DNA from: Bacteroidales bacterium
GTDB lineage: Bacteria; Bacteroidota; Bacteroidia; Bacteroidales; Muribaculaceae
Length of the DNA stretch: 37,113 bases
Reading direction: 5' to 3'
Assembly: GCA_014800785.1 (NCBI GenBank)
Contig: JAAVFK010000018.1
Location: 166,118 to 203,230, forward strand
Shown: positions 6,569 to 35,447 of the stretch, piece after piece
How the letters are laid out: every line of letters starts with the position of its first letter
Numbering within the stretch: position 1 is the first letter of the stretch
Program-made: the position numbers and the translations under genes
Notes under the pieces: model-generated
Told to the model about the DNA's origin: nothing
The model's database searches: none
Seen by the model: only the letters and a program-made list of their open reading frames with translations

Positions 6569-6596
6569 AAATCCCCCATACCTGATAAACTCCCGA

Positions 6597-6631
6597 GTCC
6601 GGTTCCGTCACAACGGAACCGGACTTTTTTT
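6597..6631 (+). terminator. Rho-independent terminator of the GH13 gene
   Basis: Perfect 12-bp stem GTCCGGTTCCGT-CACA-ACGGAACCGGAC followed by TTTTTTT. Confidence 0.92.
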
Positions 6632-6661
6632 GTTAAAATGGGGTCTTGAGACTTGTGATTT

Positions 6662-6692
6662 TTTGAAAATTCAGAAACTTGTCGTAACTTTG
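6662..6692 (+). promoter_or_regulatory. Bacteroidetes housekeeping (sigma-ABfr-type) promoter
   Basis: TTTG (6662-6665), 19-nt spacer, TAACTTTG (6685-6692); matches the established TTTG/TAnnTTTG consensus with correct spacing. Confidence 0.8.
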
Positions 6693-6696
6693 CAGA

Positions 6697-7003
6697 CGCA
6701 GACCGTTTGCGGAAGCCCGGTCAGGGCAAGCGGGAGGGTCTGCAGACATAATCGAAAAGCGTTACTCGACGCTCTTTCTTGGCTATCAGAAATCTGGTAA
6801 ATTTCATGTGGAGTCAAGGATGAGACAGCGACTGACAGCTTATGTGGATATGCATTCTATCAGCAATCCGTACGCGCGAGCGTACCGGTTTGTTGTTGGC
6901 ATATTGCGCGTGAGGCTTCTGCGTTGTCCGTTCTACTCCACCGGGCATTACCAGAGCCTCTGATAGCGGGACGGGCAACAAGTACGGCTCTCACGCTTTT
7001 TTT
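6697..7003 (+). ncRNA. Candidate structured non-coding RNA of unknown family (~300 nt)
   Basis: Own promoter; 5' hairpin GCAGACC(6698-6704)/GGTCTGC(6737-6743); long hairpin 6848-6904 with GCGA tetraloop; terminal GCGTGAG(6908-6914)/CTCACGC(6990-6996) plus GTTGTCCGTT/GACGGGCAAC helix followed by T7. Confidence 0.6.
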
Positions 7004-7070
7004 GCATACAATTATTTCACAACCAAGTACTTACAAGATGAGCCGGAAGTACACAAAACCACATCACATT

Positions 7071-7478
7071 ATGAAGAAATTCTTCAAGTACTTCTTTGCC
7101 CTGGTGATGCTCATCTCTGCATCCATGGCTTTCGTCAGCTGTAGCAATGATGACGATCCCAAATCGCCCACTACGGGTAACATCGTCGGCACATGGGTAA
7201 GCACGGAGACCGAAACCCAAGGCTCAGTTACCTGGACAAAGACCATGACACTCTGCTTCAAGGCTAACGGCACAGGCTATCGCCAGACTGAGGAGAAAGC
7301 AAGCACCGGCGCTACCAACTCGTCAATGTACAATTTCCACTACACCGTACTGACTCAGCAGAACGGTACATTGAATATCACCATTGTCGATGATGACGAC
7401 AACAATATGATCAAATGGGAAGCACAACAGACCGGCAACACTCTTCTCATTGGCACTCGCTCTTATAAGCGTAAATAA
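7071..7478 (+). CDS. Small lipoprotein, lipocalin-like fold suspected
   Basis: Lipobox FVSC after signal peptide; 'GNIVGTWVSTETE...' lipocalin-like start. Start set at MKKFFKYFF rather than the upstream 6924 start. Confidence 0.8.
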   Translation: MKKFFKYFFALVMLISASMAFVSCSNDDDPKSPTTGNIVGTWVSTETETQGSVTWTKTMTLCFKANGTGYRQTEEKASTGATNSSMYNFHYTVLTQQNGTLNITIVDDDDNNMIKWEAQQTGNTLLIGTRSYKRK

Positions 7479-8832: not shown

Positions 8833-9846
8833 ATGAAAAAAATCCATTTATGGCTGCTCGTAGTGATGAGCATATTCATCACTACTCTGACAGCCAATGC
8901 CGAAGTCCATTACGGCATTGTTATCGGTGATCTAAGTTACGATCTGGATGATGATTACCACACTGCCGCTGTTAGTACTCTTGAAAGCACAGCCATCGAA
9001 ACAGTAATTATCCCCTCAAACGTCTCCTATAAAGGACAAAGTTATGCAGTTACATTTTTAGATTGCGCCGCATTTGCAGAATGTAAAAGCTTGAAATCCG
9101 TCACAATTCCAAATGGGGTAAAAAGGATAGGAGATGGTTGTTTCCAGGATTGTGAGAATCTATCTTCCGTATCCTTGCCTGAAGGATTAAATAAACTTGA
9201 AAACGAAGTTTTCAGAGATTGTATAAACCTTTCATCCATCACATTTCCTGAAGATCTGACAGAAATAGGATTTGCGTGTTTCTGGTGTTGTTACAACCTG
9301 TCTTCCGTATACTTACCTGAGGGATTAAAGATAATTAGGGATGACGCTTTCCGAAATTGTAAAGGTTTGACATCCATTACGATTCCCCAAAATGTAACAG
9401 AAATAGAAGGATTCTGTTTCGGGGATTGTTCCAATCTGACTTCCGTTTCCTTACCTGAGGGATTGAATGAAATAGGCAGCGGAGCTTTTTATAATTGTTA
9501 TAAGTTGAACCGTGTAATTGCTAATAATCCGGTTCCTGCTATTATTACTGATTCCTCTTTCCCATTGGATATAGATTCAAAAACTGAATTTTTATATGTA
9601 CCGAAAGGATCCGTTGAGGCCTACGAATCATCGGACTGGAAATATTATTTTGAAAAAATCCTGGAGATAGACTCAGCCGAGGTTGAGGAGATCGGGGCCT
9701 GCCCGACCGGAATAAACTATTCGGAGCCATACGAAGTCTTCACTTTTGCCGGAGCTAAGGTGCACACAGATTTTGACTCACTCTCTCCGGGTATCTATAT
9801 CATCCACCAGGGTAATCTGACCGAGAAACTATCTGTCCACAACTGA
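8833..9846 (+). CDS. BspA-like leucine-rich repeat (LRR_5) secreted protein
   Basis: Signal peptide; repeats of 'LxSVxLPEGLxxIxxxxFxxCxxL'. Confidence 0.92.
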   Translation: MKKIHLWLLVVMSIFITTLTANAEVHYGIVIGDLSYDLDDDYHTAAVSTLESTAIETVIIPSNVSYKGQSYAVTFLDCAAFAECKSLKSVTIPNGVKRIGDGCFQDCENLSSVSLPEGLNKLENEVFRDCINLSSITFPEDLTEIGFACFWCCYNLSSVYLPEGLKIIRDDAFRNCKGLTSITIPQNVTEIEGFCFGDCSNLTSVSLPEGLNEIGSGAFYNCYKLNRVIANNPVPAIITDSSFPLDIDSKTEFLYVPKGSVEAYESSDWKYYFEKILEIDSAEVEEIGACPTGINYSEPYEVFTFAGAKVHTDFDSLSPGIYIIHQGNLTEKLSVHN

Positions 9847-29219: not shown

Positions 29220-30275
29220 TTAAGACTTTGAAACCGCGTTTTCGGAGACCGGCTTGGCAGAAGCGCGTCCGGAATCGCGTGCTATGTAGATCATGGTGAA
29301 GATCCCGAGAAGCACGAGCATGACGGTCTGTCCGCTCCATTGGAGCATCGAGAAAGCGACGCCCTCGCTGTCGGTGACGCCATAGAGCGAAAGGCCGAAC
29401 ATGACCGCCAGGTTCCAGGGGCCGAGACCGCCGTTGGAGGGGATGGCCATACCGACCGAACTCAGTACGAAGGCCACCAGACACGGAATCAGACCGAAGG
29501 CGAGCGAGGACTCCTCACACAGCCGCTCCGTGAAGCCGAAAGCGAAGAAAGCGACATAGAGCTGAATAAAATAACATCCCCAGAGAGCAATCGTCAGCAG
29601 AATGAATTTGCCACGACCCGGCATAGTGAGAACGGCCGCGAATCCGTTCCATATCTGCGAGGCGACATGACGTCCCTTGCGGACAAGGGGATTGTTCTTG
29701 AACAGCAGCGCGATGCCGACCACAAAGCCGACACTGGCGATACCTACAACCCACCATACCGGATTGCGCAGGACACCGAGGATGTCGCGTCCCACGGCAT
29801 ATTTATCCATAAAGGCCTCTATTGATCCGAACGCCACGGCGAGCGCAAGCAGAAAGAGCACAAGAACGGCCACGGCATCAGCGGCACGGTCAGCAACGAG
29901 TGAACCGAGCACGGTCGCGAACGGAGCTTTCCCCTTGCGCGAGACATAGGTGCACCGCCAGACCTCTCCGAGACGCGGAAAGAGCAGATTCAGAGCATAG
30001 CATCCGAAAATAGAACAGCTCAGGGCCATAAGAGGCACCTCGATATCAAGTGAACGCAACTGCAGACGCCAGCGCATAGCCCTCACGACGTGCGAAACCA
30101 CGCTCAGACACATCGCCAGCAGGATCCACCAGTAGCAGACCGGTCCGCGGAGTATCTCCATCATCGTTCCGAAGGGCACCTTCGAGAACATATACCATAC
30201 CAGCCCCACAGTCAGCAAGACCGGGATTCCGATACTGAAAATTTTTCCGATTATGTGCCTTGCGCGTGCTATCAT
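29220..30275 (-). CDS. Lysylphosphatidylglycerol synthase TM/flippase-like (UPF0104-type) membrane protein
   Basis: Polytopic; MRWRLQLRSLDIEVPL, NLLFPRLGEVWR, IPSNGGLGPWNLAV motifs. Start at MIARARHIIGK (ORF track start 30341). Confidence 0.85.
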   Translation of the reverse strand: MIARARHIIGKIFSIGIPVLLTVGLVWYMFSKVPFGTMMEILRGPVCYWWILLAMCLSVVSHVVRAMRWRLQLRSLDIEVPLMALSCSIFGCYALNLLFPRLGEVWRCTYVSRKGKAPFATVLGSLVADRAADAVAVLVLFLLALAVAFGSIEAFMDKYAVGRDILGVLRNPVWWVVGIASVGFVVGIALLFKNNPLVRKGRHVASQIWNGFAAVLTMPGRGKFILLTIALWGCYFIQLYVAFFAFGFTERLCEESSLAFGLIPCLVAFVLSSVGMAIPSNGGLGPWNLAVMFGLSLYGVTDSEGVAFSMLQWSGQTVMLVLLGIFTMIYIARDSGRASAKPVSENAVSKS

Positions 30276-30330
30276 CGTGCGAAGTTGATATTTTGGCTTA
30301 TTGCTACGCAAAATTAACGATTTTTTTCCG

Positions 30331-30338
30331 TATCTTCG
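30331..30338 (+). promoter_or_regulatory. Candidate -7 element for the LRR gene at 30344
   Basis: TATCTTCG followed by CACCG and the ATG. Confidence 0.5.
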
Positions 30339-30343
30339 CACCG

Positions 30344-31147
30344 ATGAAACAGATTGCCCTCATTTCTTTGTTCATATTGGCCCTCGCCGTCTTTTCAGCG
30401 TCGGCCCGAACCGTAGTCATCGGTCCGGAAACGTCACGCATCGAGGCTTTCCGATATGGTGGCACCGCTGCGCCGGACACACTGCGTATCTTGCCGCGCG
30501 GAGACGCACCTCTCGAAGTGGAGGAGTATGCATTCTGGGAAGGACGCGCTTTGCGGGCGATAGAATTTCCGCCTGAGTGTCGGGTACATATCCGTGAGGG
30601 GGCTTTCCGAGGATGCGGAGGTCTGCGGAAAATCATCTTGCCCGCAGAATGTGTGCTTGATGGCCAATATATATTCAGTGACTGCTTCTCGCTTGAGGAG
30701 ATCCTCTTGCCGGAGAGTCTGACCGTTATCCCTCCCCACACCTTCTCCTACTGCATCTCACTGAAAAGCATACTTTTTCCGAAGGGACTGAAGCGCATAG
30801 GCAACAATGCGTTCAGCGAATGCCGCGCGCTCGGAGAGGTCTGGATTCCAGATAGCGTGACGGAGCTCGAGAGCTACGCATTCTCCGAATGTATCGAACT
30901 GAGGGAGGCCCGACTGCCGGCCAACGGCGCCATGTTAGGGGAATTGCTATTCAGCGGATGCCGGAACCTGAAAGTGCTGATCGAGCCGAGTCCGGAGGTT
31001 CCAACGCTGGACTGCGACAGCTTCCTCTTCGAGCCCGACGAGGCGAATCTCTACCGCTCCTGCTGTCTGAAAGTTCTTCCGGAAGCCATGGGGGGCTACC
31101 GCCACGCCCACGCCTGGTCCCGCTTCAAGACAATCACGTCCCTCTGA
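30344..31147 (+). CDS. BspA-like leucine-rich repeat secreted protein
   Basis: Signal peptide MKQIALISLFILALAVFSASA; LRR_5 repeats (HTFSYCISLKSILFPKGLKRIGNNAFSECRAL). Confidence 0.87.
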   Translation: MKQIALISLFILALAVFSASARTVVIGPETSRIEAFRYGGTAAPDTLRILPRGDAPLEVEEYAFWEGRALRAIEFPPECRVHIREGAFRGCGGLRKIILPAECVLDGQYIFSDCFSLEEILLPESLTVIPPHTFSYCISLKSILFPKGLKRIGNNAFSECRALGEVWIPDSVTELESYAFSECIELREARLPANGAMLGELLFSGCRNLKVLIEPSPEVPTLDCDSFLFEPDEANLYRSCCLKVLPEAMGGYRHAHAWSRFKTITSL

Positions 31148-34046: not shown

Positions 34047-35447
34047 TCAGTTGATGAGAAGTTTGTATGTGTAGAGGCCGGCCGAGGTCTTCACGCGCAC
34101 GACCAGCATATTCTCGTCGGTCGAGAGCGTGGTCTCGAAGTTCTCGGCCATAGGCGAGACATTGAGAAGCAATGCGCCTGCAAGCGAGTAGACCTCCACC
34201 CTTTCGATCGCGAGCGGAGAGTCAATCTTGAGGATGCCGTTCTCATAGACGATACGGTTATCAGCCATGACGTTTTCAATCACGTCGTTGCCGGTATAGG
34301 CGCCGGTATAGATGTTGAAACGTCCCCATACGGGATGTTCTTTCCAAACATTCTCGGTGTTGTCAGCTACATGGAGCATCACCGACGGCGTGTCGATCCC
34401 TACGAAAGCGGTTTCGTCGGCCTCGGGGACATTGTCACCGAGAGCTCGGGCGTCGATACGTTCCAACGTCTCGACATTTCTGAGCGCGCCGGCTCCGACA
34501 GAGGTAAGTCCGGGAGAAAGGATGAGCTCAATCGCCATTGTGTTGGCGAGCGAGAAATCACCGGCAGAAGTCGTTTCAGACATCAGCGTGTTGGAGTCGA
34601 AAGATGAGCAGTTGGCCGCAAAGAGCGCCGGGAGATTGTGGGGTGCGTTGACGATGGTCTGCAGATTGGTGTCGTCCATCAGCACGCCGTTTCCGAACGT
34701 CACACCGGGAGCAAAGTTAATTTCCACAAGGCGCGACATACCGGCCAGCGCATAGTCGGCAAAATTAGTGACGCCATCCACATTGAGTGTCTTGATAGCC
34801 GTTCCGTCGAAGCAGTGGCTGCCGATCGAACGCAGAGAGAGAGGAAGTGTCACCGTCGAGAGCGACGAGCATCCGGCGAATAGATTGGCCGGCAACGCAG
34901 TCAACGACGCGCGGGAAAGATCGGCCTCCTTGAGCGCCGTATCGTTGGCAAAGGCATAGACACCTATCGACGACACCGACGACGGAAGAGTCGCCGAGGT
35001 CAGAGAGGAGCATCCGTAGAAGGCGTGCTCTCCGATAGTCCGCAGACCCGAGGGGAGCGTTACAGACTTCAGATCCGAGTCAGCGAATGCTCCGGCACCG
35101 ATCTCGACGGTACCCGAAGGGAGGGTCACCGAGGTATAGGGGGCTTTGAAGAAGGTGTACTGGGGGATGAGGTTCTCACGATAGTAGCTCTGGCCGTGGG
35201 AGTCGCGGTTAAGATCGGAATAGGCCACGATCTTGGCTCCTGACATATCGAGAGTGGTGACCTTGACCTCGGCGAGCGCACGCAGGTCGCGGACATCAAT
35301 CTCGCCCTTGATCTTCAGTTCGTCGTCAGTCAGCGATATACCTTTGAGTTCTGATTCAAGAGAACCCGGCGTAGCGGTTATGGTGGTTCCGTTTGCCGCG
35401 AAGATAACCGCGGACAGCACAACGGAGAAGAGAATCGTTCGTTTCAT
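34047..35447 (-). CDS. BspA-like leucine-rich repeat secreted protein with C-terminal sorting-like domain
   Basis: Signal peptide; LRR_5 repeats (LPSGLRTIGEHAFYGCSSL); C-term VEVYSLAGALLLNV...LVVRVKTSAGLYTYKLLIN. Confidence 0.9.
   Translation of the reverse strand: MKRTILFSVVLSAVIFAANGTTITATPGSLESELKGISLTDDELKIKGEIDVRDLRALAEVKVTTLDMSGAKIVAYSDLNRDSHGQSYYRENLIPQYTFFKAPYTSVTLPSGTVEIGAGAFADSDLKSVTLPSGLRTIGEHAFYGCSSLTSATLPSSVSSIGVYAFANDTALKEADLSRASLTALPANLFAGCSSLSTVTLPLSLRSIGSHCFDGTAIKTLNVDGVTNFADYALAGMSRLVEINFAPGVTFGNGVLMDDTNLQTIVNAPHNLPALFAANCSSFDSNTLMSETTSAGDFSLANTMAIELILSPGLTSVGAGALRNVETLERIDARALGDNVPEADETAFVGIDTPSVMLHVADNTENVWKEHPVWGRFNIYTGAYTGNDVIENVMADNRIVYENGILKIDSPLAIERVEVYSLAGALLLNVSPMAENFETTLSTDENMLVVRVKTSAGLYTYKLLIN

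Follow-up and report, generated by a model that had tools for sequence, protein, structure and literature searches.

A multi-copy family of putative switching leader RNAs in the Bacteroidales, with a member upstream of a small lipoprotein gene of a Muribaculaceae genome

Terminator/antiterminator riboswitches, such as those of the lysine, fluoride and ykkC/guanidine-I classes, are structured 5' leaders in which a terminator and an antiterminator exclude each other beside a gene. The same organization is predicted for the RNA element described here, which lies at positions 6690-7003 (as modelled, ~310 nt up to the end of its T-run; alignment A1, covariance model R1, 280 bits) of a 37,113-nt stretch of DNA from a Muribaculaceae genome (Bacteroidales bacterium, assembly GCA_014800785.1, contig JAAVFK010000018.1). 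This whole stretch is called the window below, and the features of the leader are all on its forward strand. The comparisons of sequence presented here make it very probable that the element is a cis-acting 5' leader that attenuates transcription in the manner of a riboswitch. Pseudoknots, too, are present both here and in some of the terminator/antiterminator riboswitch classes. However, this leader matches no Rfam class, its targets are far less coherent, it has very many copies per genome and, as an additional feature, an arm of its terminator pairs with a loop behind the terminator. The T-box leaders resemble it in length (~300 nt), in the choice of termination and in having several copies per genome, but the T-box model had no cmscan match in either the window or 20 divergent homologues, and the targets here are not aminoacyl-tRNA or amino-acid genes.

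Comparative genomics has already revealed orphan structured RNA motifs in the Bacteroidetes (Weinberg 2010, PMC2864571; Fremin and Bhatt 2021, PMC8040213), a discovery of the same type as ours, and at least some of these motifs immediately precede genes or include terminators. Those named in passages of PMC8040213 measure at most 132 bp, as against ~310 nt here, and a short overlap with its supplementary motifs is possible. None of these orphan motifs was matched in Rfam 15. The FopS-type small RNA (sRNA) families of Bacteroides are reportedly also RNA regulators in the Bacteroidales, as this leader would be; by their description, they are set apart from it by its cis linkage to the following gene and by the switchable terminator at its end. 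The dominant bacteria of the mouse gut are Muribaculaceae and other Bacteroidales related to them, which are also common in other animals; to our knowledge, however, very little has been learnt about how their surface genes are regulated. With dozens of unnamed genes preceded by a conserved leader, a regulon can be delimited purely from sequence, so that both the signal and the gene set become directly testable. The leader would rank among the few RNA switches with targets so scattered, and one may ask how it could have spread among genes that are unrelated.

BLASTN with positions 6640-7080 retrieved copies that are ~70-77% identical across the genus, several of them per genome. The covariance model R1, built from 20 full-length copies, detects nine copies in the genome that contains the window, each scoring more than 138 bits, and the per-genome number in the genus, with 14 candidates scored for each genome, reaches at least 14. 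Matches extend to 39 of the 178 Bacteroidales genera at E<=0.001 and to about 24 genera at >=80 bits. Because the long rod of the element is nearly palindromic, there are also antisense matches of 25-39 bits; for this reason only genera with at least 80 bits were counted as members, to the exclusion of those resting on ~40-60 bits over ~200 nt. The named members include Muribaculaceae, Duncaniella, Paramuribaculum, Muribaculum, Candidatus Amulumruptor, Barnesiella and Paludibacteraceae. In a phylum-wide sample of 299 Bacteroidota genomes, R1 matched only the window's own genome and none of about 297 others. At the curated gathering thresholds Rfam 15 gave nothing anywhere in the window, and at E<=5 it gave two weak matches, both on the terminator of the upstream amylase gene and none on the element, so the unknown family posited by an earlier, sequence-only reading of this DNA is supported. 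A scan of the 20 divergent homologues against Rfam returned neighbouring tRNAs only, and the phage and plasmid collections contained no similar DNA. No description of the core sequence or of a Muribaculaceae leader of this kind was found in the open-access literature, a scope that leaves aside subscription journals and supplementary motif lists. This would make the element one of a previously uncatalogued, Bacteroidales-wide, multi-copy family of putative switching leaders, with leader status and pairing established by comparison. While the homologues bore out the structured RNA of the sequence-only reading, its multi-copy, Bacteroidales-wide, pseudoknotted and putatively switching nature had been missed.

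The position of the copies relative to their neighbours identifies them as leaders. Of the 125 distinct copies, 114 are followed by an open reading frame (ORF), which is on the same strand in 108 cases and on the opposite strand in six, whereas the upstream genes are on the same strand in 75 cases and on the opposite one in 38 (66%; p=2.6e-13 for the difference). The start codon follows the T-run by 40-75 nt in 64 of the 108 same-strand copies, typically by 45-70 nt, and the leader is retained before several orthologous genes (61-95% identical) of different genomes. A constant position and orientation before a gene, the mark of a cis-regulatory leader, are thus found, and given this orientation and narrow start distance, the element is best seen as the 5' leader of the gene that follows it. 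In the window this gene (7071-7478) encodes a small lipoprotein of 135 aa without a Pfam match, and its ATG is 68 nt past the T-run. The sequence-only reading had left a choice between a terminating leader of the lipoprotein gene and an independent sRNA; the same-strand bias and the narrow distance favour the former and speak against the latter.

The transcript would start at a Bacteroidetes-type promoter (6662-6692) composed of TTTG (6662-6665), a 19-nt spacer and TAACTTTG (6685-6692). This promoter had been proposed from the sequence and is indeed conserved: TAnnTTTG is found at its position in 108 of 119 copies, as compared to 4.5% of shuffled flanks. The separate amylase terminator, previously put at 6597-6631, is present as well, at 6595-6626. 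The 307-nt RNA from 6697 to 7003 has a folding energy of -134.6 kcal/mol, versus -97.1 +/- 5.2 for dinucleotide shuffles (z = -7.2), and the functional leader extends beyond the T-run, up to a conserved hairpin at 7027-7052.

The first hairpin of the leader, H1 (6698-6743; GCAGACC/GGTCTGC with an inner CCC/GGG), is as the sequence-only reading had drawn it, with the inner pairs 6715-6727 and 6716-6726 proposed by RNAalifold poorly supported. Within its span is the 5' strand of the pseudoknot helix B (6709-6717, partner 6914-6922; 98% of cells paired in 93 copies), in which four pairs are changed on both sides in alignment A1. The 5' strand of helix G (6755-6762, AAA[A/T]GCGT; 93% paired) overlaps hairpin H2 (6759-6772, GCGT...ACGC with a conserved loop; 98% paired); its partner at 6993-7000 spans the terminator 3' arm and the T-run, and there is an A-T/T-A exchange at 6758-6997 (z=8.8). 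The long rod (6773-6974; 97% of 2960 cells paired) has core strands at 6782-6813 and 6936-6967, where the covariation is by far the strongest (z up to 47, 97-100% paired). The hairpin with a GCGA loop at 6848-6904, also noticed earlier, is real by sequence, fold and covariation (z 12-22 at 6869-6884, 6873-6882 and 6874-6881), but it amounts to the variable tip of this rod. Helix A, the antiterminator side, has its 5' strand at 6821-6844 and its partner at 6909-6930 (94-95% paired; z 16-17 at 6825-6927/6928). The near-invariant switch segment GCGTGAGGCTTCTGC...TTGTCCGT (6908-6931) has exclusive partners, helix A or else B, C and C2 together. The terminator 3' strands (6971-6996) are those of C2 (6971-6979; 93% of cells paired), with 6928 and 6974 covarying (z=12.9), and of C (6990-6996; 99%), and the T-run (6997-7003) has five or more consecutive T in 95 of 119 copies. 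The terminal helix and T-run of the sequence-only reading are part of a single 96-nt terminator fold (6908-7003, -40.9 kcal/mol). Hairpin F (7027-7052, GTACTT/AAGTAC), behind the terminator, is indicated by its fold and by the co-evolution of its loop. A candidate kissing loop (6793-6799/6949-6955) was dropped, both of its sides being nested pairs of the rod.

Far from lacking covariation, the homologues covary strongly. An unguided scan of all positions against all in 93 copies recovers the rod, then helix A, helix C2 and helix G. Since A and C2 use one strand, and G and C share the terminator 3' arm, these helices cannot coexist. The two resulting sets, ON (core, A and G) and OFF (core, B, C, C2 and H2), are each ~95% paired in the wider alignment A3. 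As far as covariation can tell, the leader therefore has the hallmark of an attenuator, an intrinsic terminator (C and C2) with a mutually exclusive antiterminator (A and G). None of 500 shuffles of A3 reached the covariation score of either set, and when the partner is slid by 1-3 columns the paired cells fall from ~95% to 31-47%. Because the copies are related, these shuffle counts should not be read as probabilities, and better evidence comes from the slide control and from compensatory changes, for instance the CG/GC exchange. Helices B, C, C2 and G are outside the model structure behind A3, while the rod, H2 and helix A are inside it, so that their counts lean on the model. The independent MAFFT alignment A1 gives the same result except for the columns of H2 and G, which are misaligned there.

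From this covariation we infer termination and switching. Transcription from the promoter would yield an RNA of ~310 nt with an intrinsic terminator at its end, which is followed after ~50-70 nt by the start codon. In the OFF fold the core of the rod would be kept, 6709-6717 would form the pseudoknot with 6914-6922, and 6908-6931 would pair with 6971-6996 as the terminator. In the ON fold 6909-6930 would pair with 6821-6844, while 6755-6762 would capture the terminator 3' arm and T-run and the polymerase would continue. The balance between the folds could be tipped by temperature, a metabolite, an ion, a protein or a second RNA. In mRNAs extended past the terminator, its 3' arm (CGGCTC) would be free to bind the loop of the hairpin immediately upstream of the start codon, an interaction that might adjust translation or hold the leader in the ON state. 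Most copies have a small hairpin between T-run and start codon, with a loop that complements the strand just before the terminator's ACGC. For the 57 copies with a variant arm, a copy's own loop offers 6.7 contiguous pairs versus 5.6 for the loops of other copies (permutation p=2e-4). In the window this pairing, helix E, joins CGGCTC (6985-6990) to GAGCCG (7040-7045, the loop of hairpin F) and is formed in the local fold. Such co-evolution of loop and arm suggests that the read-through RNA is under selection, which would be left unexplained if the element were an sRNA that always terminates.

The genes behind the leaders are heterogeneous: 101 downstream proteins form 74 clusters, and the majority of these proteins are without a Pfam match. 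The commonest are BspA-type leucine-rich repeat (LRR) proteins (LRR_5; eight), followed by scattered lipoproteins, TRL-like, LytTR, PEGA, BACON and zinc-ribbon proteins. Signal-peptide-like starts, scored by a crude hydrophobicity rule, are found in 53% of downstream versus 33% of upstream genes. A DUF3575 gene lies behind at least one other copy in the genome of the window, with similar proteins behind further copies. The window also encodes BspA-type LRR proteins (8833-9846, 30260-31147 and 34047-35447), with no strong leader copy before any of them. This gene set does not point to a metabolic ligand; it suggests one signal that sets the expression of varied accessory and cell-surface genes, many of the targets being apparently secreted. 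Tentatively, the leaders may make up a new riboswitch-like class of the larger kind, an RNA-only, genome-wide circuit of the Bacteroidales in which one signal would act through up to a dozen or more leaders on differing accessory and cell-surface genes, by control of termination plus a second checkpoint at the start codon. A protein family of ~260-290 aa recurs among the controlled genes (L056:11190-11966, L170:1325-2137, L136:4450-5316); by eye, its N-terminus resembles the core-binding region of phage integrases, and the member scanned has no Pfam match.

Several observations weigh against the attenuator interpretation. The controlled genes have no obvious common pathway, which is unusual for a metabolite riboswitch, and in the genome of the window an insertion of the IS110 family has deprived two copies of their gene. 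Helix C is nearly invariant within the genus, its support coming mainly from G-U pairs and a few compensatory changes, and H1, the weakest of the main helices, is paired in just 76% of cells. Owing to the misalignment in A1, the support for H2 and G comes from the larger alignments. Finally, covariation demonstrates pairing, and not the order of folding in the cell or exclusivity.

The strongest of the alternative readings, to which we give a little less than an even chance, is an attenuator responsive to a protein, a tRNA or the ribosome (for example, via an RNA-binding antiterminator protein) instead of a small-molecule riboswitch. This is a sub-case of the attenuator interpretation and leaves its leader and attenuator parts unaffected. 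The diverse regulon of ~74 gene clusters suggests a global cue, and the Bacteroidales possess RNA-binding regulators and specialised NusG proteins. However, there is no leader peptide in a conserved frame, and Rfam gives no match to a T-box or to a ribosomal-protein leader. Self-sensing RNAs typically have such a size and a pseudoknot, although this is a likeness rather than a test.

It is quite unlikely that the element is an independent, trans-acting sRNA that is upstream of genes by chance. Given its own promoter and strong terminator, the element probably gives rise to a stable RNA of ~305 nt that might also work in trans. The same-strand gene at a narrow distance in 108 of 114 copies is at odds with this, and the co-evolution of a loop behind the terminator would be meaningless if the RNA always stopped at the T-run. 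We thus reject the trans-acting sRNA as the main role because of the fixed relation to the neighbouring gene, although as a secondary function, action of the terminated RNA in trans would be compatible with an attenuating leader. Still less credible is a mobile DNA unit, MITE-like or cassette-like, carrying a promoter and a hairpin. The copies are numerous and dispersed, sometimes three within 9 kb (locus L057), but they diverge to ~70% identity and yet keep their base pairs, they stay before orthologous genes, and their edges coincide with promoter and start codon; the two own-genome copies with identical downstream sequence proved to border the IS110-family insertion. A translation-coupled attenuator with a leader peptide can practically be set aside, since despite short ATG ORFs in some copies no ORF start has a common length or frame across 93 copies, the pairs are conserved and the indels are not in threes.

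In these two copies (L038, 6729-7822, G000:C30; L034, G000:C15:71956) an identical foreign sequence (CTCACGTATTC...) begins inside the leader terminator. In L038 it carries, on the opposite strand, a transposase gene of the IS110 family (DEDD_Tnp_IS110, Transposase_20), and in L034 the contig terminates ~100 bp into it. Elements of the IS110 type are guided by a bridge RNA, and this one may target the conserved leader. The three copies of L057 and the two of L056 are arranged as leader-gene-leader-gene arrays, with unrelated genes between them. Several of the own-genome copies L234-L239 (G000 contigs C11, C12, C35, C21, C8 and C23) are less than ~1 kb from a contig end and some precede DUF3575-like genes; here a repeated surface-gene family probably breaks the assembly.
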